From Aquitalea magnusonii (GTDB lineage Bacteria > Pseudomonadota > Gammaproteobacteria > Burkholderiales > Chromobacteriaceae), in contig NZ_QJKC01000005.1 in the NCBI RefSeq assembly GCF_003202035.1, positions 1-64,000 of the forward strand: a DNA stretch of 64,000 bases, written 5' to 3'. The notes beneath the pieces are model-generated. The model had not been told where the DNA came from and did no database searches. It worked only from the letters and a program-made list of their open reading frames with translations. How positions within the stretch are numbered: the first letter of the stretch is position 1; every line of letters begins with the position of its first letter. Below, one piece after another: positions 38,931 through 62,234 of the stretch. Position numbers and translations under genes: made by a program.

Positions 38931-38953
38931 AAAAAAGCCCACCGAAGTGGGCT
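38931..38953 (-). terminator. Hairpin with T tract after the tape measure gene
   Basis: AGCCCAC and GTGGGCT arms around CGAA with an A run on the left (T tract on the minus strand). It overlaps the tape-measure stop and lies about 15 bases before the next start codon. Confidence 0.85.
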
Positions 38954-41900
38954 ATCCATGTTTTAAATTAAATTTTCGCGCAGCATCTAACAATTGCGAA
39001 ACAGAACTGCCAGAACCGTGTAGCTTTACCGGATCAGACATCCCGGGCAAATATAGATTTACTGGCGACCCCATCGATACATCCGCAGGCGAAGTTGATA
39101 GCGACGGAATATTCAGACTACCGGCAACCGATGGGAAATCAGCGCCAACCAGACCACCCACGTCATACCCACGCAGATCCTGAACAGCCCTCATCCCTCG
39201 CGCATGAAAATCCTGCATAAACTCCAGCGCACCTGGCTCACGCATTCTGTATTGCGGCTGAACATACTCGCCACGATGCACAATGCCAGCAGGCTCTTTA
39301 ACACCTCCATCACCGGTATAGCCACCAGAATCATAGCCAGGCGTCGTAACCCCAACAGCAGCCCGCGCATCTTGCAACAACTTTCCATCGGGCCCAACAT
39401 ACTGCACCGGAATGGTTAGCGGCTTCGTCCGCGCCTTTTCCTCGATCTGCGCCATGAATTTTTCAAGATCAAAAATGCCCTTTTCGGTATCAAAACCAAT
39501 CGGCATGTTTTTGACTGCATCAGCAGCCCGCTTCAGCGCCTCTACCTTTTCCATGGCCTTCTGCAACTGATCCTTACCAACCTGCTCCCGGCCAGCATCC
39601 ATACTATCCTGCGATCTACCGGCTTGATCATTGAATAGCTTGAATTCACCTTCAGTGATCTTTCCAGCACTACGCAGCTGGTTGATAACCTCCATCACAC
39701 GACTGAATGCAGCCTCAGCAGCAGTGGCGTCCCGCGTAGCTTTCTGAAAATCACTATCCAGACCAGTTGCCCCAGCAGTCTTTTGACTATCAGCAGCCTT
39801 ACGAGAAAGCTCCTCAGCCTTCCTCAGACTCTCGTAATAGTCGGTTACCCCCTGCGGGTCAGTATTTTTCGCTGCTGGATCAACTGCCTTATTGCTGGCC
39901 CAGGCATTCTGATGCTTTAGCCGCTCATCAGTCGCTTTTTTTAGATCATCATTAGCCCGGTCATATAACTTCTGCTCTTTAGCCAGATCAACAGCTAAAT
40001 TTGCAAGAGCGCCATTACGGATAGCATCAACATTCTTATTGAACCGGTCTTCTGCTGCAGTCCTTCGCTGCGCATACCCCGAAAAGCCATCCATGGCTTT
40101 TTGATAGGCCAGCATTTCACGGGCCAATTGCCTGGACTGCTGATCTGCCAATACATTTCCACCGGCATTGGCAACAGCCTCAGCATGGCGCTGCAACATC
40201 TGCTGTTTATTCTCAAGCGAGCGCTTAAGGTCATCGCCATATTCAGCAATCTGTTCTTTACTCATGCTATTTAGCTGTTCATCAGTCCTGATGCCAACCT
40301 CCGTCCTCCCTGACGCCATAAGTGATGAAATTCGTGCCGACTGCGCCATTGCACGTTCAATTCTGCGATTATGCATTTCAAGCTGATCATATGCGACTTT
40401 TGCTGCAGCCGCTGCTAAAAGACCAGCTATGCCCAATGTTGCGGCAGTCTTGAAAGTAGCAACCTCAAATGTCAGGGCTTTAATTTTTTCTGATATGGCA
40501 CCAAGCTTATCTAAAGCGCCCGCACCAAATACCAAATCAGCAATTGTTCCAACAGAACCCAATGCTAACATTGAAATCTTCAATGAATTAAACCCATTAT
40601 CAACAGCAGAAATCCACCCAATAACAGACCTTAAAATAACCAAACCAGCATAGCTACCTGCCAGCAGCTTGATTGCATCAGCATGCTCACGAATAAAGCC
40701 CACTGTTGACTCAACAACAGACCCGATAGCACTGATGATATCGGCCATGCGCCGGCCCATTTTCTCCGCAGTACCGTCAGCCATTGCCGTGCGGATCATC
40801 TCAGTGAGCTTAGCAACCTGCTCCTTGGCAACATCCATCAGGCCGGCATCAGCTAGCTGCGCCTTGAACTGCTCCCAGATATCTGACAACTGAGATAATG
40901 CCCCCTGCCAGGTAGAAACCTGACTGGCTGCAGCCCCTTTTGCATCAGCCTCCATTGCCTGAATAAGCTTGGTGATCTCATTCCGGCCCAGCTGCCCAGC
41001 TTCTGACATTTTCTGTAGATCTGCAGTGGTCTTATTGAGCGCCTTGCCGAGCAAATCCCACACAGGAACACCGGCATTGATCATCTGCAGGATGTCATCA
41101 CCTTGTAGCTTTTGCTTACTCCAGGCTTGACCAAGTGCCAGGCCAATGCTGGTCAACTTCTCCTGACCACCACCCAGCCTTGCAGACTGATCAACAATTG
41201 CTTGCAACGAACCGGCCATGGGATCAAGACCAAAGTTCCGAAGCTGGATATATGACCCAGTCAAATCCTTTACGCCAAATGGTGAATCAAGCGCCAGTTG
41301 CTTCATGGCAGCAAATGCATGATTGCCAACAGTTGCAGATTTTTCGACCGCAACCAGTTGCACTTTCAACGTTTCAAACTGCCCCGCCGTATCAAGTACA
41401 ACATTGGATGCCGAATACAAGGCCGCAGCCAGGGCGGTCAGCGCAGCAACAGCACCAACTACCTCACCACGCATACCAGACAAGAAACCTGCACCAACAG
41501 GCGTAGAAGCCTGGCCATGAAGCTCAGCAAGCTTTACACGCAGCTGCTCAGCCGCCTTAGCCTGCTCCTGATAGGATAGCTTCCCACTTGCAAGAAGCCT
41601 GTCATATGCCAGCTGTAGCTTTTCGACCTTTCCCTGCATCTCAGCAGGATCAACCAGCCCCAACTCAGCACGCGACGAGGAAACCGACTTCTCTCGAATG
41701 GCCCCCACGCTGACATCACGAACTTTGCTTTGTATCTTCTGCTGAGCAGCCGGAAGATTGGCGATATCAACACCTGCAGATGCTAATTCCTTTTTGACAT
41801 CGCGCCAGGCAGATATCTGCTTCCGCATCCGATCTTCTGCTTTTTTGAGCGCCTTTTCCGTCTTGCCCAAGCCGGCCTCAAGATCAGCAGTTGGCCCAGT

Positions 41901-42134
41901 AGCCTGACTGATAGCAGTACGGTATCCCTCAGCCTCCTTTTTCAGCCTGAAAAACTCGCCAGACGCTGCTTTCGCATCCTTCTGCAGCTTGCCAAATATT
42001 TCCACCTGAGCAGACTGCCGGGCCATACCCTGCAAAGCAGAACCATATTTCTTTTCCGCTGCAGCCACTTCAGATACCCAGCCACTGGCATCACCTTGAA
42101 GCGCCAGGCGGATCAGCATGTCATTACTTGCCAC
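38952..42134 (-). CDS. Tail tape measure protein
   Basis: The 1060-residue ruler that sets tail length and later passes through the host envelope. The N-terminal 180 residues are strongly helical and charged (coiled-coil type). The conserved tape-measure domain follows (about 240-430), with FETLKVQLVAVEKSATVGNH, LALDSPFGVKDLTGSYIQLR and MINAGVPVWDLLGKAL. Hydrophobic helices are near 500-590 (ASYAGLVILRSVIGWIS and AATLGIAGLLAAAAAKVAY), as usual. The GTG start at 42134 is supported by a perfect AAGGAGG 6 bases upstream, and it overlaps the stop of the chaperone fusion. At about 1.5 angstrom per residue, the tail would be roughly 150 nm. Confidence 0.95.
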   Translation of the reverse strand: MASNDMLIRLALQGDASGWVSEVAAAEKKYGSALQGMARQSAQVEIFGKLQKDAKAASGEFFRLKKEAEGYRTAISQATGPTADLEAGLGKTEKALKKAEDRMRKQISAWRDVKKELASAGVDIANLPAAQQKIQSKVRDVSVGAIREKSVSSSRAELGLVDPAEMQGKVEKLQLAYDRLLASGKLSYQEQAKAAEQLRVKLAELHGQASTPVGAGFLSGMRGEVVGAVAALTALAAALYSASNVVLDTAGQFETLKVQLVAVEKSATVGNHAFAAMKQLALDSPFGVKDLTGSYIQLRNFGLDPMAGSLQAIVDQSARLGGGQEKLTSIGLALGQAWSKQKLQGDDILQMINAGVPVWDLLGKALNKTTADLQKMSEAGQLGRNEITKLIQAMEADAKGAAASQVSTWQGALSQLSDIWEQFKAQLADAGLMDVAKEQVAKLTEMIRTAMADGTAEKMGRRMADIISAIGSVVESTVGFIREHADAIKLLAGSYAGLVILRSVIGWISAVDNGFNSLKISMLALGSVGTIADLVFGAGALDKLGAISEKIKALTFEVATFKTAATLGIAGLLAAAAAKVAYDQLEMHNRRIERAMAQSARISSLMASGRTEVGIRTDEQLNSMSKEQIAEYGDDLKRSLENKQQMLQRHAEAVANAGGNVLADQQSRQLAREMLAYQKAMDGFSGYAQRRTAAEDRFNKNVDAIRNGALANLAVDLAKEQKLYDRANDDLKKATDERLKHQNAWASNKAVDPAAKNTDPQGVTDYYESLRKAEELSRKAADSQKTAGATGLDSDFQKATRDATAAEAAFSRVMEVINQLRSAGKITEGEFKLFNDQAGRSQDSMDAGREQVGKDQLQKAMEKVEALKRAADAVKNMPIGFDTEKGIFDLEKFMAQIEEKARTKPLTIPVQYVGPDGKLLQDARAAVGVTTPGYDSGGYTGDGGVKEPAGIVHRGEYVQPQYRMREPGALEFMQDFHARGMRAVQDLRGYDVGGLVGADFPSVAGSLNIPSLSTSPADVSMGSPVNLYLPGMSDPVKLHGSGSSVSQLLDAARKFNLKHG

Positions 42135-42533
42135 TGGATGCCTCCTTGCAGGCTACTGAAAACAGGGAATAGGGATACGTCAAAACATTTGTATGGCCCA
42201 GCGTCACCAGCGCACAGATCGCACGATCCAGTGATGCTATTGCACTCTCTCGACTAGCTTTCCGAGACGATCCCGTATTCCGAAAAAAAGCGGATTTACC
42301 TCTTTTGCCGCGATGCACAGCATATCCAGATCAGAACTTGTCGCATGCAGTAGATCATCAACCAGCATCCCCGCCATAAATGCCAACTCGCTAAGAGTAA
42401 TATCCTCAAGAATAAGCGCATCAATATAATCAACAGGCTTAATGCTTAGCAAATTACGAACATCAGAAACATTAAGTTCCTTAAAGACAATTTCACTGCC
42501 ATGCAAGTTGACAATTTTACATTTCTTTGACAT
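42124..42533 (-). CDS. Tail assembly chaperone fusion product (GT-like), made by -1 frameshift
   Basis: Reading from the ATG at 42533 and shifting back one base at the slippery site (42282-42288) joins the first frame to a second that runs to the stop at 42124, ten bases past the tape-measure start. The product is about 136 residues, with the shared first 84 plus a tail beginning RNTGSSRKASRESAIASLDR. In lambda the G and G-T chaperones work together to load tail tube protein on the tape measure, and the same layout here, between tube and tape-measure genes, supports the same role. The second frame has no ribosome binding site of its own. Confidence 0.85.
42237..42533 (-). CDS. Tail assembly chaperone (G-like)
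   Basis: A 98-residue helical protein starting MSKKCKIVNLHGSEIVFKEL; GGTGA lies a few bases before this ATG, and the upstream ATG in the same frame falls inside a terminator hairpin. It contains DLDMLCIAAKEVNPLFFGIR and ends LGKLVERVQ. Its place between the tail tube (with one inserted gene) and the tape measure, plus the frameshift at its end, identifies it as the G-type tail chaperone of a siphovirus. Confidence 0.85.
   Translation of the reverse strand: MSKKCKIVNLHGSEIVFKELNVSDVRNLLSIKPVDYIDALILEDITLSELAFMAGMLVDDLLHATSSDLDMLCIAAKEVNPLFFGIRDRLGKLVERVQ
42282..42288 (-). promoter_or_regulatory. Programmed -1 ribosomal frameshift slippery site
   Basis: The minus strand reads T-TTT-TTC in the frame of the G-like gene (codons CTT TTT TTC), a classical X-XXY-YYZ heptamer. 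Slipping back one base gives TTT-TTT-CGG and continues into the second frame exactly. The position, 15 codons before the zero-frame stop, matches G/GT systems. Confidence 0.9.
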
Positions 42534-42544
42534 ATATTCACCAA

Positions 42545-42570
42545 ATAAAAAAGCCCGGCTTCCCGGGCTT
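42545..42570 (-). terminator. Hairpin with T tract before the tail chaperone gene
   Basis: AAGCCCGG and CCGGGCTT arms around CTTC with an A run on the left (T tract on the minus strand). It ends about 12 bases before the chaperone ATG, leaving only room for its ribosome binding site. Confidence 0.88.
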
Positions 42571-42630
42571 ATATTAACTAGCATGTCTATATGGAACTAT
42601 GAATATTCCACTTATGCGCGCACCACTATT

Positions 42631-43311
42631 TCAAGGCACAACACCGCCCTGATTAATTATCAACTCCTTCTGCTTAGCGATAACATCACTGACAATCCTG
42701 TCAGACCTAACAGCAGGGTAAATAAATAAAAATAGAGAAATTATTGATATAGCAATTGGCATAAACAGCATACCTCTCAATCCATACCGACTTCTGCAAG
42801 ACATGTACCAAACATATCCAACAGGAAATACCACCATTATTACTAAAAATATTAAAAAACTTGGTAATGGATCATCGCTTTTGCTATTACCATAAAGCTC
42901 TCTTGCCGCAATTACTCCAACAATAGCAGACATAACGCCATACATAGCTATTGCAACTGCTTTTGCAATAACCATCAGCGGGCCAATTGCAACAAAAAGC
43001 ATAATTGGTGCAGAAAGTGCAATTGGCAATGTGACCAACAGTACACTACTGTCAATCCTTCTCAAATCATCTTGGCAGGATATATTCGATATATTTCCAT
43101 CACTGATTAATTTTTCTCTTTGACGCCGATCATATTCAATTCTTTTTTCTGGGAAAAGTAATATTTCAGCACATAAAGAAAGCATTCTAGCTTGCGTAGC
43201 ATCAGCCCCATCAGCTCTATGCTTTTCAGCTATAGAGTTAATTGCAGATCTTATTGCCTCAGGAGCTGCATTATTTTGCACTCCTAAAAAATCATATAGT
43301 GACTGACTCAT
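42631..43311 (-). CDS. Membrane protein with J-domain-like N terminus (candidate moron)
   Basis: A 226-residue protein set between the tail tube and chaperone genes, where no tail part is expected. Residues 4-66 resemble a J domain in layout: SLYDFLGVQNNAAPEAI, then a helix, then a KHRADG loop where HPD would stand, and a last helix ending PEKRIEYDRRQRE (the usual P..R..YDR end). The HPD is absent, so it should not activate Hsp70 in the normal way. About four membrane helices follow (around 90-112, 115-135, 150-168, 180-200). It is clearly more AT-rich than its neighbours and flanked by hairpins on both sides, which suggests a gene added to the tail operon. The function is unknown. Confidence 0.7.
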   Translation of the reverse strand: MSQSLYDFLGVQNNAAPEAIRSAINSIAEKHRADGADATQARMLSLCAEILLFPEKRIEYDRRQREKLISDGNISNISCQDDLRRIDSSVLLVTLPIALSAPIMLFVAIGPLMVIAKAVAIAMYGVMSAIVGVIAARELYGNSKSDDPLPSFLIFLVIMVVFPVGYVWYMSCRSRYGLRGMLFMPIAISIISLFLFIYPAVRSDRIVSDVIAKQKELIINQGGVVP

Positions 43312-43360
43312 GTCATGAACCTTCTTGAAAAATCCATGACATCAGACTATCACATGAACT

Positions 43361-43381
43361 GCTCCCGGTCGAACCGGGAGC
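43361..43381 (-). terminator. Strong hairpin after the tail tube gene
   Basis: GCTCCCGGT and ACCGGGAGC arms, nine perfect pairs around CGA, placed between the tail tube gene and the inserted membrane gene. It lacks a T tract, so it may protect the tail-tube mRNA 3' end more than it stops transcription. Confidence 0.65.
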
Positions 43382-43389
43382 AACACATG

Positions 43390-43917
43390 CTAGACCTTGG
43401 TATCCATCTCGATCTTGAAGTACTGGCTCTTGCCAGCGGGCTTGGACGAATCCGCCAGGATCGCACCCTTGACCTTCAAGGTCGAAAAATCATCGCCGAT
43501 CAGATCAAGACTGTCCGCTGGAGACACCTTCAGTCGATAGACCTCAACAGTAACAGATGCACCGCTCTGGGCTTCATTCAGACCCTCAAAGCGCAACGAG
43601 TACTCTTTCCCGACCTGTGTCAGTGCCTCAATAGAAGCCACCCCAGTTGCATTGTCAACGCTATATCCACCGGATGTAGCCAATGCCAGATTTTCCGGAG
43701 ATAGCTCACGCAGATCCATTTCAGCTGTTATATCATTGATACGATAAACCGTATTCTGATTACCACCACCGGCAGTTTTATAATTTGCCAGTTTCTTTTC
43801 ATCGATAGACAACTTAAATGACAGAGAGCTGCAGTTACCCATCGCATGTTCTACTGCCCCATCGATCAGAATAACCATACCCTTACCGATAAAGCTATAC
43901 TCTTGAATCGTACTCAT
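43390..43917 (-). CDS. Major tail tube protein
   Basis: A 175-residue protein; GGGAGG before the ATG at 43917 decides the start. The sequence MSTIQEYSFIGKGMVILIDG, LRELSPENLALATSGGYS and VGKEYSLRFEGLNEAQSGA has the mixed beta pattern and small size of siphovirus tail-tube subunits, which stack as hexamer rings around the tape measure. It sits between the tail-terminator type gene and the chaperone genes and has its own upstream hairpin and strong ribosome binding site, as expected for a protein needed in many copies. Confidence 0.85.
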   Translation of the reverse strand: MSTIQEYSFIGKGMVILIDGAVEHAMGNCSSLSFKLSIDEKKLANYKTAGGGNQNTVYRINDITAEMDLRELSPENLALATSGGYSVDNATGVASIEALTQVGKEYSLRFEGLNEAQSGASVTVEVYRLKVSPADSLDLIGDDFSTLKVKGAILADSSKPAGKSQYFKIEMDTKV

Positions 43918-46270: not shown

Positions 46271-47473
46271 TTAGGCCGCTGCTTGCTGGAAGGTTTTCAC
46301 AGCACCACCAATGTCCAGCATATTGCCGTCATGACGAGCCAGCGCATGGAAGCCGACCAGACCTTGCTCGTTGTATTTCGAGTCAGTATTGCGATACAGC
46401 ACGGTATCCAGCACATCGCGTATCAGATATTTGCCGTGATCACCGAAGCTGATGGTTTTGGCATTGGCCGCAGGAGCTGGCATATGCTGATTGATCTGAT
46501 ACGGATAACCAGACAGAGTATCCGGAGCCTTGACTTCCAGACCAGGCATCCAGAGCGGACGGCCCATACTGTCCTTCATTTTCTTCAGGACACGCAGAGT
46601 ACTGTCATGCAGCATCCAGCTGGCATTAGCCCGATAAATCGGGTCAACACTGTGCTCCAGATCAACCAGATCATCATAGAGCACAGTTGCAGTCTGACCG
46701 GCACCAGCCACCTTGCCCACCGGGGCGGCAGTAATAATGCCCTTCGGCTGGCCAATGCCTGTACCGACAGTAAAGTGGCGGTTCGTGATACGGCCCAAAC
46801 GCATACCCAACAGCTGAACAACATACGACTCAACATCAAAGGCAGCGTCTTGCAGCAGCTCGATGGACAGGGCAACCGTTTTGCTGGAGTACTTATAGGC
46901 ATTCAAAGAAGCCTGGCCAAAAGTTGTATCCTGAGCATTTGCCGGGACATTCTCACCAATGATCTCCCCCTCTTCGGAAGTAGCATCGGTAACCGGGAAA
47001 AGCAGGCCAGCACCAGTCTGCGTGCTTACCACAGTTGCCAGATTGCGCATCCCGCCAAACAACTTCATTGCTTGAAGGATGGAGCTGTACATCTCATTCG
47101 GCACCAGGTAGCCACCGCCAGCCGGAGCTGCAATAGTTTGCGCATTGGTAAAGCGCGGATCTTGTTGCAGAGCACGCACACCATCACGACCATCACGAAG
47201 GAAGGCAACCAGCATTTCACGGCGCAGCTCAGCCGCATTCTCCAGGATCACACCACGGAATTGACTGGTAGCCTGGTCATTGGCGGCGATACCTTCCTGA
47301 ACAGTCAGCGCAGCCTGAATGGCATTGATCTGCTGGTCAATCTGTTCAACTTCGGTTTGCATTGCTACAAACTGAGTCTGACGATCAGAATTCCATACGC
47401 CATCAGCATCAACCAGCGCCTTCATCTTGTTGGCGATTTCAACACGCTTTTCACGCAGAGCTTGCAGCTTCAT
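46271..47473 (-). CDS. Major capsid protein, HK97 fold
   Basis: A 400-residue capsid protein. Residues 1-95 are a helical, charged delta domain (MKLQALREKRVEIANKMKAL and QTEVEQIDQQINAIQAALTV) that acts as internal scaffold and is cut by the upstream protease. The mature part begins near 105, and contains the typical GGGYLVPNEMYSSILQAMKL, AYKYSSKTVALSIELLQDAA (E-loop to spine) and NASWMLHDSTLRVLKKMKDS. The C-terminal VLYRNTDSKYNEQGLVGFHA is also family-like. GGAG is before the ATG. The absence of a lysine-asparagine crosslink cannot be decided by eye. Confidence 0.96.
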   Translation of the reverse strand: MKLQALREKRVEIANKMKALVDADGVWNSDRQTQFVAMQTEVEQIDQQINAIQAALTVQEGIAANDQATSQFRGVILENAAELRREMLVAFLRDGRDGVRALQQDPRFTNAQTIAAPAGGGYLVPNEMYSSILQAMKLFGGMRNLATVVSTQTGAGLLFPVTDATSEEGEIIGENVPANAQDTTFGQASLNAYKYSSKTVALSIELLQDAAFDVESYVVQLLGMRLGRITNRHFTVGTGIGQPKGIITAAPVGKVAGAGQTATVLYDDLVDLEHSVDPIYRANASWMLHDSTLRVLKKMKDSMGRPLWMPGLEVKAPDTLSGYPYQINQHMPAPAANAKTISFGDHGKYLIRDVLDTVLYRNTDSKYNEQGLVGFHALARHDGNMLDIGGAVKTFQQAAA

Positions 47474-48332: not shown

Positions 48333-49560
48333 TCCCACTCCCTGCTTTCACGATTTCCCCCCCATCAGGATCAGGAGGCAGATTCTTGATATGCCGGACT
48401 TCATTGATCGTCATCCAGCCCTGCGAGCCCGGCCCACCCAGCGCCTTACTGAAGTACGCAGCCTGGGCGGCACTATCACCCTCAAGCAACGTATCAAGCC
48501 CAAACTCACAATAAACACCAGGCTTCACAAACAGCTTGCGATTCGCCTCCTGCTGAATGGCCATGAGATGGCGCTTGAGCGTGAACTTTACAAAGCCCTG
48601 CGTCATCGCCTCCAGCCCCGTCCCCCAGCTTGTCGCTTTGTCAGTCGCACCGATCATGTGCGGCGGAACACCGTAGATCCGCGCAATCTCGACCACTGAA
48701 AATGCACGCCCTTCCAGCAGTTGCATATCGACTGGAGAAATCTGCAACCGATCAAGCTTCCAGTCAGCACCAGATAGCACCATCGGGCGGCCAACATTCG
48801 CCAGCCCGTGCGCTCGCGCCTCAACTTCAGCACGAATATCCCGCTTCTGATCTTCATTCAGCTTTCCAGCAGTGCTGATCAGATACGATGCGCCAGTTCC
48901 CTGCCCAAATTGGCGCTCGCTGAACTGCTGCTGGCCAAGTGCAAGGCCGATGGTCTGATTAGCATAGTGACGAACCGGGGAAAGCGAACGAAGACCGTTA
49001 TAGCCAAGACCAGGAACATGGATGATGTCATCCTCATGCACGCTATGAACCTGCCCAGTAGGTAGCCAGAATGTGTAGCAACGCCAGCCGCCCTGATCAA
49101 GCATCCGCTGCACTGTCGTAGCTCGCGGATTCAGCGGCTGGATACCTACCGGATTACCCCGCCTATCACGCATGATCCAGGCAACAAAATCACCGTCCAG
49201 CAACCGGGACTGCATCCCGTATTCCCACATAGCTGATGCCGTGTATTCATTCGTCGCAGATTCGTTGAACAGATACCAAAAATCATGATCAATCGGCTTA
49301 CGGCCAGATGGAGTCTTCTGAAAGAACTGCAGCGGCAGCGTACTGACAATACCGGCGAGCAACTGGACACAGGCATAAACAGCACCAACCTGCATTGCAG
49401 TCGTCTCATTGACCGGAACTCCCGTAGCAGACGGCATGCCGAATACCTCGCCAAACCCGCCAGAGCCCTGGCCAAGATTCTGGACAGTAGGCTCTTTTCG
49501 CTGCTCAGTATCAGCAGCTGGCGGAGACTTACCCGCCCAAAACCGGTCAAAAAAGCCCAT
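48295..49560 (-). CDS. Portal protein, HK97 family
   Basis: A 421-residue protein forming the DNA-entry ring. It begins MGFFDRFWAGKS; its ATG overlaps the terminase stop (TGATG), so translation is coupled. Signatures include MQVGAVYACVQLLAGIVSTL, DGDFVAWIMRDRRGNPVGIQ, NPRATTVQRMLDQG, DIIHVPGLGYNGLRSLSPVR and VEIARIYGVPPHMIGATDKA. All are standard for HK97-type portals, and the length is normal. Confidence 0.95.
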   Translation of the reverse strand: MGFFDRFWAGKSPPAADTEQRKEPTVQNLGQGSGGFGEVFGMPSATGVPVNETTAMQVGAVYACVQLLAGIVSTLPLQFFQKTPSGRKPIDHDFWYLFNESATNEYTASAMWEYGMQSRLLDGDFVAWIMRDRRGNPVGIQPLNPRATTVQRMLDQGGWRCYTFWLPTGQVHSVHEDDIIHVPGLGYNGLRSLSPVRHYANQTIGLALGQQQFSERQFGQGTGASYLISTAGKLNEDQKRDIRAEVEARAHGLANVGRPMVLSGADWKLDRLQISPVDMQLLEGRAFSVVEIARIYGVPPHMIGATDKATSWGTGLEAMTQGFVKFTLKRHLMAIQQEANRKLFVKPGVYCEFGLDTLLEGDSAAQAAYFSKALGGPGSQGWMTINEVRHIKNLPPDPDGGEIVKAGSGNGNQKPSDPAQG

Positions 49561-51395
49561 CAGCAAATCACCTCCACCTCTGTTTCATCATCCAGATATG
49601 TCATGGCCCGCGTTGCTGCCATAGAAAGCGCCACAATCGGATCAATACGGCCCTGACTACGCTTTTTGTCCGGCTTGATGTTTTCGTTACTGTCCATCAG
49701 CAGCGTCACATTCCCAGCGCACCAGCGGAGCAACGGATTTCCACCATGGCGTAGCCGCTTGCTGTAAACCAAGCGCTCAAGATGCTTCGCACCAGGTGAC
49801 AGACCGGCAAAGTTTTGCGGTAGCTTTACCATCGGCACGTCCTTTTCCAGCAGCTGGTTCGCCAGGTGCGTGCTATTCCATGTGTCGAATGCGATTTCTC
49901 GCACATCAAAATCACGGCATGCCTGCTCAATGACTTCCCGAATTGGGTCGTAATCGGTTACATCACCCTCTGTAACGGTCAACCAGCCCTGCTTTTCCCA
50001 CGCCTTGTAATCAGATCCGTTGTCTTGATCAGCTGCATCGACCTTCGCCTGAGGAACCCAGGCCCAAACCAGTACATACCATTCGCCATCCTCATCGCCA
50101 GGCGGCGGCGGGAACAAAAGCACAAAGGCCGTGATGTCTCGCGTACTGGCTAAGTCGAGTCCGCCGAAGCATTCACGGCCTTGCAGCATGCAAGGATCGA
50201 ATTTCTTCTTTCCCTTGTCCCAAACCAGCATGTCAAACCAGGACAATGAGTCACCGACAAACACATTCAGGTCTTTTGTCAGAAAGTTTGCCCTGGCCGA
50301 AGGCATGATCTTCGCCTTAGCGGCCTGCGCTTCCATATATGAGTAGGTTTTTGCAGAACCCAGCGATGGATTGGCTTTTGGCCAGTTTTCCGACGAAAAA
50401 GGGTCATCCCCCTCATCAATCGTGTAAATCACCCCAAAAAAGCTGTCATCCTGCACCTCACCGCGCAGAATTCGCACCAAATACGACCGAATTTCGATGC
50501 AAATTCCGTCCAAAATGAACCCGGCAGTGGTGATTGCATTGATCAACGGCTGCGTCCGCGCCCCCAGCGCTGACTCCATCACATCCCAAACCTCGCGGGT
50601 TTTGTGCGCATGCAGCTCATCAACCAGACAGGCATATGGGTTTAGGCCATCAAGCGACTCCGCATTTGCTGGAAGCGGCTTATAAACGGACTCACCAATC
50701 GACATTTTTTCTTGATTGGCACCGTCAAAAATCCTGACTGACTTAGCCAGCCTGGGCGACTGGCGGCGCAGGCGCTTGATATTGTCGAATGCCGGCTTGA
50801 ACACAGACATGGCCTGCTCACGCGTCGTCGCAATCGAATAAACCTCAGCACCGCCCTCACCGTCCATCATCCACAAGTACGAACCAATCGGCCCCCACCA
50901 GGTGGACTTGCCATTTTTGCGGGCAACCTCTTCATAACCCGTCCGGAAGCGGCGGCACCCATCCGATGCCCTCCGCCAGCCGAAGATAACTGCCGTCCAG
51001 AACAGCTGCCAGCCATCAAGCATGATCGGCTGCCGGGCAAGCGGCCCTTTGATATGAACAAACCAGCCCTGTACATAGTTGATGACATGCCAGGCATGGC
51101 CAGGACTGAAAAACAACCCGCGCTTTGCACCTTGTTGCAGATCACGATAATGGCGCTCAACTGCCAGCATGGTCAGCTGACCAACAACGATTTCACCGCG
51201 CAGTACAGGCACACCATAAACCCGATCCCACTCTTGCCAATCAGCCTCAGCCGGAATCAGCTTTAAGCGGCTGACGGGTGGCTTTTTGCGTGACCGACCA
51301 GACCGTCGAACAGATCGTCTTGCGGCGTTGCCGCTGGAAGCTTGGCTTTTACCGTCGCCACTGACGGCAGAGTCAGGCAGCATTCCGGTAGCCAT
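49560..51395 (-). CDS. Terminase large subunit
   Basis: A 611-residue DNA-packaging motor. The ATPase domain has a Walker A-type motif EEVARKNGKST (about 150-160), Walker B with catalytic Glu in YACLVDELHAHKTREVWD (about 255-272) and a coupling TTAGF motif (INAITTAGFILDG). The C-terminal nuclease domain contains FGGLDLASTRDITAFVL and the later acidic GRIDPIVALSMAATRAM. It is of the Terminase_1 group that pairs with P27-type small subunits. It overlaps the small subunit gene by 133 bases if ATG 51395 is used; a later start is possible but no good alternative was seen. Confidence 0.94.
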   Translation of the reverse strand: MATGMLPDSAVSGDGKSQASSGNAARRSVRRSGRSRKKPPVSRLKLIPAEADWQEWDRVYGVPVLRGEIVVGQLTMLAVERHYRDLQQGAKRGLFFSPGHAWHVINYVQGWFVHIKGPLARQPIMLDGWQLFWTAVIFGWRRASDGCRRFRTGYEEVARKNGKSTWWGPIGSYLWMMDGEGGAEVYSIATTREQAMSVFKPAFDNIKRLRRQSPRLAKSVRIFDGANQEKMSIGESVYKPLPANAESLDGLNPYACLVDELHAHKTREVWDVMESALGARTQPLINAITTAGFILDGICIEIRSYLVRILRGEVQDDSFFGVIYTIDEGDDPFSSENWPKANPSLGSAKTYSYMEAQAAKAKIMPSARANFLTKDLNVFVGDSLSWFDMLVWDKGKKKFDPCMLQGRECFGGLDLASTRDITAFVLLFPPPPGDEDGEWYVLVWAWVPQAKVDAADQDNGSDYKAWEKQGWLTVTEGDVTDYDPIREVIEQACRDFDVREIAFDTWNSTHLANQLLEKDVPMVKLPQNFAGLSPGAKHLERLVYSKRLRHGGNPLLRWCAGNVTLLMDSNENIKPDKKRSQGRIDPIVALSMAATRAMTYLDDETEVEVIC

Positions 51396-55882: not shown

Positions 55883-56075
55883 CTGATCCGGCACTAGCAC
55901 GAAACAGTGCACTAAACTCACTCATGGCATGAACAATTAAATCCATACTTCCCCCACGCTCCAGCCGAATACTTCCATCCTTCCTAACAGCCATAAAAAC
56001 AAACGCCGGGAAGTCATCACCAACGATGACAGACGGCCTCGCCTGCCCACATTTCCCACATTTTGCTGTACTCAT
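55872..56075 (-). CDS. Small protein with a CxxC knuckle
   Basis: A 67-residue protein starting MSTAKCGKCGQARPSVIVGD, with one Cys-x-x-Cys pair, then AFVFMAVRKDGSIRLERGGS and a helical end. It is convergent with the CI-like gene and overlaps it by 11 bases. The upstream signal is weak (AGATGAAAA). It may be a small regulator; no family is recognised. Confidence 0.5.
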   Translation of the reverse strand: MSTAKCGKCGQARPSVIVGDDFPAFVFMAVRKDGSIRLERGGSMDLIVHAMSEFSALFRASAGSATA

Positions 56076-56143: not shown

Positions 56144-56515
56144 CTACCGCTTCGGTAACATACGTAATGTGACAAGAGAGTCCTCAAGATTCCGGATTTT
56201 TTCACTTGCATTGAAAAATTCAGTGGCAATTTTTAACAGGATGCATAGCTCTGTATCACTTAAATTAACCGCCAAGTCCATCAGCTGCCTTATCGCCTGG
56301 CGACGGACATACTCAGCAACACCACCAGCAAGCTGGCCCTCATCAATACCTAGCGCCTCCGCAATATCATGAATATGCTCAGCATTTGGCAATGACTCAC
56401 CATTAAGCCACCGATACACGGTCTGCCTACTTACATTGCAACCTGATGCAAGATCGGAAACACCCTTATCACTAAGAGCCATCAACCTACGCAGCGTTAC
56501 CGAAAACTCTTCCAC
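56144..56515 (-). CDS. Xre-family regulator with long C-terminal helix region
   Basis: A 123-residue protein with an N-terminal helix-turn-helix, GVSDLASGCNVSRQTVYRWL followed by NGESLPNAEHIHDIAEALGI, and a C-terminal helical part (about 70-115: LMDLAVNLSDTELCILLKIA) likely for oligomerisation. Its start is GTG at 56515, with only a weak AGGG upstream. It is the second regulator on the minus strand right of the CI-like gene. An imperfect palindrome, GCGTTAACG, lies upstream. Confidence 0.68.
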   Translation of the reverse strand: MEEFSVTLRRLMALSDKGVSDLASGCNVSRQTVYRWLNGESLPNAEHIHDIAEALGIDEGQLAGGVAEYVRRQAIRQLMDLAVNLSDTELCILLKIATEFFNASEKIRNLEDSLVTLRMLPKR

Positions 56516-56665
56516 CGAAAAACCCTAAGTAAAATTACTAGGCTTTGGTATGCGTTAACGTAACACTTTTGGCAACTAGACGTGACAGATCAGACACAAT
56601 TTACCCATGCATCATTTGCCGGATGCATAGCAAGGCAAAACGCATCAAGTAATTGCCAGATAAAA

Positions 56666-57004
56666 CTACTTCGCAGCCTTTGCGGCAATGATTGCCATCA
56701 GGCGGCCAATCTCATCAGGGCCTTTCGCAAGGAGCCTATCAGCCAACTCTTCCAACCCTCCAACGGAAGGAAGATAGCCGCCTCCACCGGGCGGCGGATA
56801 CCTATCACCAGCACCAGTTTTTAGCCATTCTGCACTCACTTTGAATGCACGCACAAAACGGAAAAAAACATCAGTTGTAGTATCTGCCTCACCACTCTCA
56901 ATCATTGATAGAGTTGATCTAGCAATACCAGCCTTTCGCGCCAGCTGCTCCTGAGTCCAGGAACGACTTTCGCGCTCTTGCCTTATTCGATCACCCATTT
57001 TCAT
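56666..57004 (-). CDS. Xre-family repressor next to the rightward promoter
   Basis: A 112-residue protein with a classic helix-turn-helix: MGDRIRQERESRSWTQEQLA then KAGIARSTLSMIESGEADTT and FFRFVRAFKVSAEWLKTG. A glycine-proline linker (YPPPGGGGYLP) follows, then a helical end. It is convergent with nothing and divergent from the rightward accessory operon. The promoter between them carries two copies of the palindrome also found at the cro-like gene, so it is a strong candidate for the protein that binds them. Start ATG is one of several closely spaced (57022, 57004, 56998). Confidence 0.75.
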   Translation of the reverse strand: MKMGDRIRQERESRSWTQEQLARKAGIARSTLSMIESGEADTTTDVFFRFVRAFKVSAEWLKTGAGDRYPPPGGGGYLPSVGGLEELADRLLAKGPDEIGRLMAIIAAKAAK

Positions 57005-57155
57005 CGCAGCATAGTGAGCCATAGGCGCGTCACTATGCTGACGCATACCGTCGGTATACAAGACACAAATTTCTGCCAGAAGCCCCGCCAAATATAGCCA
57101 TTAGACAATCGGCACTGGTAATTCGATTACCCTGCGCAAACAATGAACCAAAATT

Positions 57156-57198
57156 ATTGCATTTCGCAATTGACATTGATGATTGCGTATCGCAATAT
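57156..57198 (+). promoter_or_regulatory. Rightward promoter with two operators
   Basis: Palindromes ATTGC-ATTTC-GCAAT (57156-57170) and ATTGC-GTATC-GCAAT (57182-57196) have centres 26 bases apart. Between and over them is a plus-strand promoter: -35 TTGACA (57170-57175) and -10 AATATT at an 18-base spacing (57194-57199). Both operators overlap promoter elements, so bound repressor should block rightward transcription. Confidence 0.75.
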
Positions 57199-59352: not shown

Positions 59353-59621
59353 ACCCTGGCACCGCAGAGCAGCTAGAGGCTGCAAAAGAAGATGCCCGGC
59401 TCATTCCGTTTGCCACCCTGTTTTCAGTCAACAGTGATGGGGACTGGAAGCACCTGGCCGGCCAGACCGTCACGCGACGGCGCAACGGCGGAACGTGTGA
59501 GAAAGAGGCGGTATCGATGATCCTGACCGATTCCAGCACCCATAAAACCATAGCAGCCTCAGCAACCGACCTTGCTGCATTCGGAAAGCCCGGCCAACCC
59601 AACTTGGATTTTGAGCCATGA
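59349..59621 (+). CDS. Hypothetical phage protein
   Basis: A 90-residue protein, MNPGTAEQLEAAKEDARLIP, then DGDWKHLAGQTVTRRRNGGT and an end rich in small residues. ATGA overlaps at both ends show that it is part of a coupled set with the HTH and zinc-finger genes. No family is recognised. Confidence 0.6.
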   Translation: MNPGTAEQLEAAKEDARLIPFATLFSVNSDGDWKHLAGQTVTRRRNGGTCEKEAVSMILTDSSTHKTIAASATDLAAFGKPGQPNLDFEP

Positions 59622-60220
59622 CCAAAGACGACCTCTTGAAATTTTGCACCCCAGGAAAAGTCCGCCTGTATCCACACAGCGATGGAGTAAATACCTATTG
59701 CAGTAACGGCATATTAGCCATCCGCGTCGCTGAAGCCATCAAGGGAGCCTATACATGCCTACCAAACGAGTCCCCAATTCCTGCCATGCTTGAGAAACAT
59801 ACGGACGGCCATGGTAATTATGAGTATGTGAGCCTCCCCTTCATTCCCAGACCAAAAAACTGCCGTCACTGCAATGGAACCGGAATAAGACATGACTGCA
59901 CCGAATGTAATGGCGTAGTTATATTCCCTCCAGATGAGGATGATGAATTTTGCTCCAAGTGCGGAGGAACCGGAATGGCATCAAACACAGCTGACTCCAT
60001 AGAAGTTAACTGTAGATGTTGTGATGGAACAGGAGAAATGCCTAACCATGCGGTAAGGATGCCCAATGGCCAATGGATGGCCAGGCGGTATCTGGCTCTT
60101 ATTGCAACACTGCCAAATGTAACCGTTAGCACCCGCCCAGTGCCTGATGATAGCCAATATCATGCACTGCACTTCATTTTTGATGGTGGCGAGGCTATTT
60201 GCATGCCTCTTAATCCCTGA
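59618..60220 (+). CDS. Protein with DnaJ-type zinc-finger repeats
   Basis: A 200-residue protein with four CxxC-type units in its centre (about 87-140): CRHCNGTG, CTECNG, CSKCGGTG and CRCCDGTG. This is the cysteine-rich pattern of DnaJ (CxxCxGxG), enough to bind two zinc ions. No J domain is attached. The N terminus (about 1-80) and the C terminus (MPNGQWMARRYLALIA and YHALHFIFDGGEAICMPL) form another domain I do not recognise. Such zinc fingers occur in phage proteins without a chaperone role. It is coupled to the genes before it (ATGA). Confidence 0.75.
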   Translation: MTKDDLLKFCTPGKVRLYPHSDGVNTYCSNGILAIRVAEAIKGAYTCLPNESPIPAMLEKHTDGHGNYEYVSLPFIPRPKNCRHCNGTGIRHDCTECNGVVIFPPDEDDEFCSKCGGTGMASNTADSIEVNCRCCDGTGEMPNHAVRMPNGQWMARRYLALIATLPNVTVSTRPVPDDSQYHALHFIFDGGEAICMPLNP

Positions 60221-60988: not shown

Positions 60989-61243
60989 ATGAAAATTGAT
61001 CGAGACAAGATTGACCGGCAGGCGCTGGAACACTTCACTTCACAGGCAGGAAAGCCAAGTACGGCAGAACACACCAACAATGCCCCCTTCATTAGCAATG
61101 TGTCGTGGCGCTTCAATCAGGCCACGGCAGATCTACTGGAAGAAGTGTTTACAGGCAGCACAGTCAAGAGCAAGCAAAAGCTGCTCGATGACATCCTTAT
61201 CCCTGAGCTGCTACGCCGCCGCGACCAGATCAGGAACAAATAG
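60989..61243 (+). CDS. Small ParB-like partner protein
   Basis: An 84-residue protein starting MKIDRDKIDRQALEHFTSQA. The C-terminal half, NVSWRFNQATADLLEEVFTG then STVKSKQKLLDDILIPELLR, fits a ribbon-helix-helix DNA-binding fold, and the N-terminal basic part could stimulate ParA. The gene order parA, repeat array, small RHH protein is the type Ib partition layout. The ATG at 60989 has no strong ribosome binding site. Confidence 0.65.
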   Translation: MKIDRDKIDRQALEHFTSQAGKPSTAEHTNNAPFISNVSWRFNQATADLLEEVFTGSTVKSKQKLLDDILIPELLRRRDQIRNK

Positions 61244-61271
61244 ACCACCAGCCCCAGCAGCTGGAGAACAC

Positions 61272-61299
61272 AAGGCCCAGGTAGATACCGGGCCTTTTT
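61272..61299 (+). terminator. Terminator between parAB and the methyltransferase
   Basis: GGCCCAGGTA and TACCGGGCC arms (one bulged A) followed by TTTTT. It lies 29 bases after the ParB-like stop and just before the methyltransferase start. Confidence 0.85.
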
Positions 61300-61313
61300 C
61301 TATGGGAGACATC

Positions 61314-62234
61314 ATGAAAGTTGCAGATGGATTCGCAGGCATTGGCGGATCTAGCGAAGGCGCAAAGATGGCTGGAGCGGAAATAGTGTGGACTGGAAAC
61401 CACTGGCAGGAAGCTGTCGCTATTCACGCCAGAAACCACCCTCAGGCGATGCATACATGCCAGGACATGCACCAGGTCAATCCAGCCCTTATTCCGCAGC
61501 ATGACATTTTCCTTGCAAGCCCCTGCTGCCAAGGACACAGCCCAGCAAGAGGAAAGGCCAACGGAAACCCGCAGCATGACAGCAGCCGAGCAACAGCATG
61601 GTCAATCCTGAGCATTGCGGAGTACCACAAGGAAGATGTCATTATCGTTGAAAACGTACCGGCATTTACCAAGTGGGCGTTGTACCCAGCATGGCGGCAG
61701 GCGCTTCATGCACTCGGATATGCAATCTCACCCTACATCATCGATGCCGCCGACCATGGCGTACCCCAGAACCGAGAGCGCCTCTATCTGGTGATGACCA
61801 GGAGCAAGCACCCTATTGAGCTGACCCTGCCCCACCGGCCACACGTAGGCGCTGACAGCTTCATTGATTTTAGCCATGGCAGCTGGAGCAAGATCGACAG
61901 ACCGGGCCGCAGCGCCGCAACACTGAGCCGCATAGCCGCAGGCCGCCGCCGCTTTGGCGACCGATTCCTTGCCCCTTACTACGGTACTGGGTCTGGCCAG
62001 ACTGGACGAGACATTGCCCGGCCAATCGGAACAATCACAACACGGGATAGATGGGCAGTGATCGATGGCGACCGCATGCGTATGCTCACCAAGCACGAAT
62101 GCGCAGCCGCCATGGGATTCCGACCCGACTACATCCTTCCAGAGCAACACACTCTTGCAGTCCACATGATCGGCAATGCCGTCTGCCCTGTAGTCATGTG
62201 CGACCTGATCAACTCCATCAAGGAGGCAGCATGA
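61314..62234 (+). CDS. DNA (cytosine-5)-methyltransferase
   Basis: A 306-residue enzyme that would put a methyl group on C5 of cytosine in a DNA site. Motifs in order: I FAGIGGSSEGAKMAG (SAM binding), IV with the catalytic cysteine in FLASPCCQGHSPARG (the usual PPC is PC-C here), VI VIVENVPAFTKW, VIII QNRERLYLVM, and X HMIGNAVCPVV. The target-recognition region is short (about 210-245). GGGAG lies 5 bases before ATG 61314, which decides the start. There is no restriction gene nearby, so it is a lone methyltransferase, probably protecting phage DNA. It is coupled to the next gene (ATGA). Confidence 0.92.
   Translation: MKVADGFAGIGGSSEGAKMAGAEIVWTGNHWQEAVAIHARNHPQAMHTCQDMHQVNPALIPQHDIFLASPCCQGHSPARGKANGNPQHDSSRATAWSILSIAEYHKEDVIIVENVPAFTKWALYPAWRQALHALGYAISPYIIDAADHGVPQNRERLYLVMTRSKHPIELTLPHRPHVGADSFIDFSHGSWSKIDRPGRSAATLSRIAAGRRRFGDRFLAPYYGTGSGQTGRDIARPIGTITTRDRWAVIDGDRMRMLTKHECAAAMGFRPDYILPEQHTLAVHMIGNAVCPVVMCDLINSIKEAA

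Follow-up and report, generated by a model that had tools for sequence, protein, structure and literature searches.

The gene and its prophage setting

The window analysed here, a 64,000-nucleotide stretch of the Aquitalea magnusonii genome, carries tail, capsid, terminase and regulator genes of a prophage whose lambda-type integrase lies just outside it (Table 1). The tail tube and chaperone-position genes are separated by a reading frame for a protein of 226 aa. Its GC content is 37.3%, compared with 47.3% for the tail tube gene and 50.6% for the tape measure gene, and none of the window's other ORFs of 150 aa or more (48 in all) is lower; a deviating composition is characteristic of morons. 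The first-pass annotation had described a low-GC gene splitting the tube–chaperone gene order, and both the composition and the family matches of the two neighbours (phrog_807 and phrog_7608) confirm this. The chaperone-position gene was scanned as a longer ORF reaching position 42584.

Table 1. Features of the prophage locus (window positions unless a contig label is given)
Feature	Position	Strand	Remarks
Predicted moron gene	42631–43311	(-)	ATG start, 226 aa; HPD-less J-like domain 1–62, variable linker 63–86, four-TM module ~87–205, short charged tail
J-like domain	43126–43311	(-)	HPD position = R32-A33-D34
Four predicted membrane helices	42697–43053 (approximate)	(-)	hydrophobic segments and model
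RBS hairpin over Shine-Dalgarno and start codon	43307–43345	(-)	49-nt fold −19.6 kcal/mol, z −4.8
Extended -10-like element	43344–43352	(-)	TGATAGTCT; begins 41 nt ahead of the start codon
Hairpin after the tube gene	43353–43389	(-)	no T tract; one compensated pair
Terminator-like hairpin before the chaperone-position gene	42551–42570	(-)	relatives that lack the J gene have hairpins here too
Tail tube (major tail) gene, upstream neighbour	43390–43917	(-)	phrog_807, E 1.4e-36
Tail chaperone-position gene, downstream neighbour	42237–42533	(-)	phrog_7608 (function of the family not known), E 1.1e-18; role inferred from position
Tape measure protein	38952–42134	(-)	TMP_3, E 5.4e-33
Prophage terminase	49560–51395		
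Prophage HK97-type capsid	46271–47473		
Two HTH regulators of the prophage	56144–57091		
Lambda-type integrase of the prophage	L191:1325–2440		just outside the window

Full-length orthologs were found in genome G005 of the same genus (54–56%; L006:10159–10890), in the IMG/VR contig L129 (2581–3318; 51%) and in Paludibacterium denitrificans (L134:6077–6766; 34%), which belongs to the Chromobacteriaceae, the family of the window's host. All four family members sit between the tube and chaperone-position genes. A further record, L002, agrees with the window at every one of the 16,678 bases compared and does not count as an independent member.

The J-like domain

Against Pfam DnaJ (PF00226) the window protein scores 16.6 bits (E 0.0086) and the L129 and G005 orthologs 17.2 and 12.7 bits, all below the cut-off of 27.8 bits; the Paludibacterium ortholog exceeds it at 34.6 bits. 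With a profile built from the J-like parts of the four family members, the number of distinct PDB sequences matched at E ≤ 0.001 is 37, almost all named DnaJ or Hsp40, and the best E is 3.4e-9, so that homology to J domains, as judged by profile comparison, is secure. In this part the AlphaFold2 model contains helices at residues 5–9, 17–34, 38–51 and from 54 onwards, with a block pLDDT of 87–96 over residues 1–70; the underlying alignment of 44 rows comprises three family members and 41 ordinary J domains and leans toward the J fold. An earlier model derived from the three family members alone has the same helices, with a pLDDT of 53. A Foldseek search with the model returned 35 best matches, 26 of which are titled J-domain or Hsp40 (ERdj5 included), the other nine being large assemblies. 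The match to 2och has a TMt of 0.83 and an rmsd of 1.8. The Foldseek E-values are modest (best 0.023, none ≤0.001), perhaps due to the TM part inside the query.

The HPD motif is absent from all four family members, where the corresponding residues are RAD (in two of them, the window protein included), AAS and KSS. Aligned with ordinary J domains, the window protein has KHRAD where these read KHHPD. The host DnaJ segment AYRKLAMKYHPD corresponds to AINSIAEKHRAD in the window protein, a pairing made by hand, as MAFFT places gaps there. In helix II, YRK of the host DnaJ is replaced by INS. The positions lost here, HPD and those of helix II, make up the Hsp70 contact face of J domains. With the profile and fold matches on one side and the loss of these positions on the other, the predicted product is J-like, but not a working J-domain co-chaperone. 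The J-domain layout without HPD, described in the first-pass annotation, is thus retained, and structure prediction, which had been named there as a check for a J-like helix pair, returned a J fold, if from an alignment rich in J domains.

A J scaffold that is kept while its Hsp70 face is lost (HPD to RAD, YRK to INS) would also suit a decoy of the host J-protein network, pairing with DnaJ or a host J protein, much as Pam16 does with Pam18, and blocking chaperone-dependent steps of other phages, for example replication. Precedents are known in TbPam16/18, membrane J-like proteins that reportedly act without Hsp70; Pam16/Tim16 and trypanosome Pam18 likewise combine a J scaffold lacking an intact HPD with a membrane anchor (PMC11349236). 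These proteins are, however, eukaryotic, possess another membrane part and are related via the J domain only. The host of the window has an HPD-less J protein of its own (L183), to which the window protein shows no meaningful pairwise similarity (E 13), and the decoy is regarded as quite unlikely.

The membrane module

Hydrophobic segments number four in L130 (a record identical to the window), four in L129 and three in L134, and the AlphaFold2 model has four long helices in the membrane part (pLDDT 59–87). The four membrane helices of the first-pass annotation are accordingly predicted here as well. In an alignment of the TM parts of six sequences, eight columns are invariant. The N terminus is inferred to be cytosolic.

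Searches with the TM part against Pfam, NCBIfam and PHROGs gave scattered single-member matches, none of the Pfam-scored ones passing its cut-off; the best is DUF2070 in L129 (E 1.1e-5; 22.8 vs 30 bits). The TM-part profile has no match in the PDB at E up to 1. In a class-wide search, nine of the 274 genomes match at E ≤ 1e-7, six of them in the J part only. Outside the family the four-TM module turned up in two bacterial genomes, G671 (E 1.9e-12) and G486 (E 8.6e-10), where it follows zinc-ribbon-like N termini (Zn_Ribbon_1, E 2.4e-4, and Zn_ribbon_3, E 0.067, respectively; both below cut-offs). Conversely, an HPD-less J domain precedes a different TM part in the chromosomal genes L184:6012–6644 and L185:5700–6287, whose genomes read as Neisseria-like by gene content. 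As the TM part occurs behind zinc-ribbon-like domains and HPD-less J domains occur before other TM parts, the predicted protein is a new pairing of two modules. The chromosomal proteins L183, L184 and L185 of Neisseriales and relatives share the N-terminal HPD-less J domain, with TM segments behind it in L184 and L185, but differ in their C-terminal parts; that of L184 is DUF4870-like (20.4 bits, below the cut-off of 25).

Genes for the four-TM module with a zinc-ribbon-like N terminus lie at L169:1381–1947 and L170:1060–1947, the former close to genes that by eye resemble toxin–antitoxin pairs. The zinc-ribbon relative has no match in the phage records.

A small multi-TM protein with a cytosolic, sensor-like domain and apparent control of translation could be a membrane-damaging abortive-infection effector, restrained until the J-like domain senses another phage. 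No toxin or holin family passes its cut-off, however; Phage_holin_3_6 reaches 14.5 of the 28.4 bits needed, and that in the G005 ortholog only. Such an effector is considered very unlikely.

Distribution and selection

The TM part is present in three of the 61 genomes of the family, the window's own included, always in this prophage type, and in one of the 398 genomes of a phylum sample, again the window's own. The possibility raised in the first-pass annotation that all related phages carry the gene as an essential tail component was tested and is false: related prophages without it exist. When the full alignment was searched against the order, 343 of 399 genomes gave a match; among the matches listed, those other than G000 and G005 are mainly to the J part, with low scores, and the count is uninformative on the family itself. 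Plasmid records gave no match to the gene, and in phage records only the J part was matched, in unannotated records of 484 and 636 kb.

Between the window and G005, the J-like and TM parts have dN/dS values of 0.20 and 0.21, and the linker (19 codons) has 0.70; linker and C-terminal tail diverge fast. These values indicate a gene that is retained under purifying selection. Synonymous divergence between the same two sequences amounts to 0.25 for the J-like and 1.8 for the TM part; the tube gene has a value of 0.55. The J-like and TM halves seem to have different histories, with a probable recombination edge near codon 62.

A slot for variable cargo

One Paludibacterium strain contains two related prophages in which the stretch between the tube and chaperone-position genes (the slot) measures 1295 bp and 47 bp. 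The slot flanks are 96.6% identical on the tube side (526 aligned bases) and 87.5% on the chaperone/tape side (638). The 1295-bp slot holds a DUF4124-like gene and the J gene; the 47-bp slot has a hairpin. The DUF4124-like gene (L134:5621–6055; E 0.015, below the cut-off) encodes a secreted-looking protein and heads the cassette, followed by the J gene. Frame breaks or stops, perhaps assembly errors, are present in the tube gene of either prophage and in the chaperone gene of L131, and the pair is evidence of an empty slot, not proof of a viable phage.

In other relatives the slot carries other genes. In G058, where the tube is 57% identical, the TM part is absent and the slot has an 80-aa ORF with two apparent TM stretches (by eye). 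In more distant tube relatives from viral contigs the slot is either short or contains an antirepressor (L143), a member of a 120-aa family (L146), a DUF5677 protein (L150) or, at L155:5419–6783, a class-3 lipase behind a small protein that has a single hydrophobic stretch. ORFs were listed at 27 of the 29 tube-relative loci, L156 and L157 being left out. The gene is best explained as a prophage moron, an optional AT-rich cassette in a slot of variable cargo; a moron had been suggested in the first-pass annotation, and its optional nature is now documented by the Paludibacterium pair and by the other cargo in relatives. The small protein and lipase of L155 resemble a two-gene effector or defence unit.

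Hairpins around the gene and in other cargo heads

The cassette had been credited with its own flanking hairpins, a view that does not stand. Of the 14 slots scanned, eight are short, with the tape measure as the next gene, and a T-tract hairpin occurs in six of these (L138, L139, L142, L144, L153 and L154, but not L132 and L148); since it is kept in short slots without cargo, this hairpin belongs to the tail operon. The downstream hairpin of the window thus persists where the gene is absent, and the upstream one lacks a T tract. Flanking hairpins were therefore dropped as a mark of the cassette.

A third hairpin, missed in the first-pass annotation, covers the ribosome-binding site (RBS) and start codon. 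Its stem has 17 predicted pairs in the window, G005 and L129: 11 are invariant, five are changed on one side, one is compensated and none is broken. Scoring of hairpins gave 13 with a score of at least 12 on the window strand (64 kb), where the RBS hairpin scores 14.0, four others 14 and the best, the adjoining hairpin, 14.5. In L129 the J-head hairpin is the only one scoring at least 12, and in L006 it is the best of three. At the L134 cassette head the corresponding position is taken by a hairpin whose sequence is unrelated, the sole one reaching 12 in the 10.5-kb locus, and the unrelated cargo of L146 has an RBS hairpin as well. For comparison, 0.05–0.1 hairpins scoring at least 13 are expected in 7.5–10 kb of shuffled sequence. 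Single-fold z values are −4.8 (window), −6.2 (L129), −8.8 (L134) and −6.0 (L146), with control leaders at −2.6 (chaperone) and −2.0 (tube).

RBS hairpins were also scored across nine loci for a total of 85 genes, defined mechanically as ORFs with a minimum of 100 aa; for each, the best of all starts in the first 26 codons was taken. The top five scores (18.5, 16, 14, 14 and 13; median 6.0) all belong to cargo heads, which represent three unrelated sequences. Cargo heads account for seven of the 85 genes; the other two are those of L150 (7.0) and L155 (10, at an internal start). An internal start in the G005 tube gene scored 12.5, just below the fifth cargo head. Because the window hairpin was seen first and shares its ancestry with those of the other two J heads, L134 and L146 serve as the independent tests. 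No comparable RBS hairpin was found at the cargo heads of L150, L155, L143 and L101, the last two lying outside the nine loci. L189, a 78% relative of the L146 cargo, shows by eye only an 8-bp stem, whose long loop encloses the promoter-like element, and the best leader hairpin of L190 scores 9.0. A role of the hairpin as a phage-repressor operator was also considered and is unsupported; the repeats beside the repressor genes (57153–57196) differ in sequence.

A promoter-like element partly overlaps the hairpin. The motif TGRTAGNCT precedes the start codon by 41 nt, counted from its first base, both in the J heads and in L146, whose cargo is unrelated, and by 40 nt in L189, against a background of 0.003 per 80 nt; variants are present in L150 (TGGTATAAT) and L190 (TGGTAATGT). 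It is absent before the cargo of L134, L155, L143 and L101. Extended -10-like elements are not enriched in the window overall (four found vs 1.9 expected), and a sigma-70 scan placed no promoter at the element site, with three in the region vs 4.3 expected.

In modelled transcripts starting at the gene's own element, the start codon of the three J heads goes from 0.33–0.34 to 0.80–0.99 unpaired; the Shine-Dalgarno sequence is mostly in a weak stem (0.13–0.28 unpaired, −6 to −8 kcal/mol). In the modelled L146 transcript the Shine-Dalgarno sequence goes from 0.11 to 0.49–0.61 unpaired and the start codon from 0.94 to 0.05–0.59, and L189 shows no gain (0.38 to 0.39; start codon 0.39 to 0.07). Since the modelled relief is partial in the J heads, mixed in L146 and nil in L189, a hairpin switch is offered as a hypothesis, for which the place and strength of the hairpins speak, modelled release aside.

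The hairpin bears on the proposal that the product assists tail assembly of the phage itself as a membrane-bound chaperone. Kinship with DnaJ would fit a folding role, and the gene lies between the tube and chaperone-position genes in all four members. It is nevertheless missing from related prophages with the same tail genes, and the protein has no HPD; furthermore, late tail mRNA would be made by read-through from upstream, and on that message the RBS is predicted to be locked. The modified tail-assembly chaperone, one of the roles suggested in the first-pass annotation, is weakened by these findings and appears extremely improbable.

Proposed role and relation to known systems

For an optional, AT-rich gene, maintained by selection and with a start predicted to be locked on late mRNA, a function in the lysogen is the simplest reading, and we infer that it likely acts there, outside virion assembly. 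The gene may have its own weak promoter directly upstream. On the long read-through (late) mRNA the hairpin would lock the RBS and start codon, keeping the cargo silent; a message from the gene's own promoter would carry only a stub of the hairpin. The protein would reside in the inner membrane, its J-like domain serving in the cytoplasm as a binding surface without Hsp70 drive, and other tailed phages would be excluded at DNA entry, through binding of their tape-measure protein or of the host membrane protein on which the tape measure depends. This protein-level picture, drawn largely by analogy, is possible but tentative. The explanation as a whole, a prophage moron expressed in the lysogen and responsible for superinfection exclusion, is put forward as a plausible account that may well prove wrong. 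The earlier interpretation as a whole is partly supported.

Exclusion at DNA entry is taken as the leading reading since it has the best precedent for a small membrane protein in a tail-operon moron. HK97 gp15 is described as a superinfection-exclusion moron, and SieA and TP-J34 Ltp also act at DNA entry (PMC10883804). Like the window protein, gp15 is a small predicted inner-membrane protein encoded by a tail-module moron near the tube, chaperone and tape measure genes; it differs in having 62 aa and in following the chaperones rather than preceding them. BLASTP gave no alignment between the two proteins at E up to 100, and the HK97 morons gp15 and gp22 have no RBS hairpin (scores 6.0 and 3). 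SNIPE, as described, is membrane-bound, acts at DNA entry and binds the siphovirus tape measure (PMC13190303). The likeness to P22 SieA and SNIPE would lie in a predicted membrane protein with a proposed action at DNA entry. SNIPE, compared by description, differs in possessing DUF4041 and a nuclease, and the available text mentions no J-like domain. Tab of Pseudomonas phage JBD26 is reported to be a late-operon moron under its own promoter, which protects the host and keeps other phages from assembling their tails (PMC10884400). The likeness, again by description, is that of a prophage moron in a late operon; Tab has 83 aa and is encoded between terminase genes. A search of the PADLOC defence library with five proteins gave no match.

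The same moron evidence is compatible with lysogenic conversion, in which an envelope property (stress, transport or secretion) would be changed without relation to other phages. In the two bacterial genomes with the four-TM module, no phage structural genes were noticed among the ORFs listed beside it, and HPD-less J proteins, several of them with TM segments, exist elsewhere in the order and in the window's own host. The rarity of the gene (3/61) and the fast divergence of its linker and tail, however, look more like conflict than housekeeping, and conversion of this kind is judged unlikely, if conceivable.

The proposed hairpin switch has parallels in T4 e, soc, I-TevI and segB and in Aeh1 mobE, where an RBS hairpin silences read-through mRNA and a promoter inside or next to it escapes (PMC2988022, PMC3014915). 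In the T4-type systems late promoters yield the free message, whereas here a lysogen promoter would do so. A bolder and rather doubtful extension is that the slot would be a cargo dock with a rule, cargo being kept if it brings a promoter and an RBS-locking hairpin, which would leave it mute on the very long late tail mRNA and heard in the lysogen alone, and that a dead J domain on a swappable four-helix module, joined to a zinc ribbon in bacteria and to a pseudo-J in phage, would gate the DNA entry of rivals from the cytoplasmic side.

Morons, J-like membrane proteins and RBS hairpins are each of known kinds. The literature searched, with most subscription papers outside reach, contains no report of such a gene, of this combination of features or of repeated RBS hairpins over the cargo heads of one slot. 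The question addressed, an old one, is how a moron in a tail operon is kept from being translated off the late message yet is well expressed in the lysogen; the hairpins on three unrelated cargo sequences suggest a testable answer from sequence alone. RBS hairpins could also help to locate cargo carried by other phages. A phage-encoded J domain that lacks the HPD trigger and is predicted to lie at the membrane would reveal whether domains of this kind can act in defence simply as surfaces for binding.

Other observations in the window concern the region of the prophage regulators and beyond. A palindrome resembling the J-gene leader is located at 55921–55933 (TTCATGCCATGA). In the prophage early region, a protein encoded at 59618–60220 (+) has DnaJ-type CxxCxGxG zinc-finger repeats (PF00684, E 7.8e-5, below the cut-off; phrog_37414, E 1.2e-27) and represents a second DnaJ-flavoured gene within the same phage. 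A C5 cytosine DNA methylase is encoded at 60996–62234 (+) of the same region.
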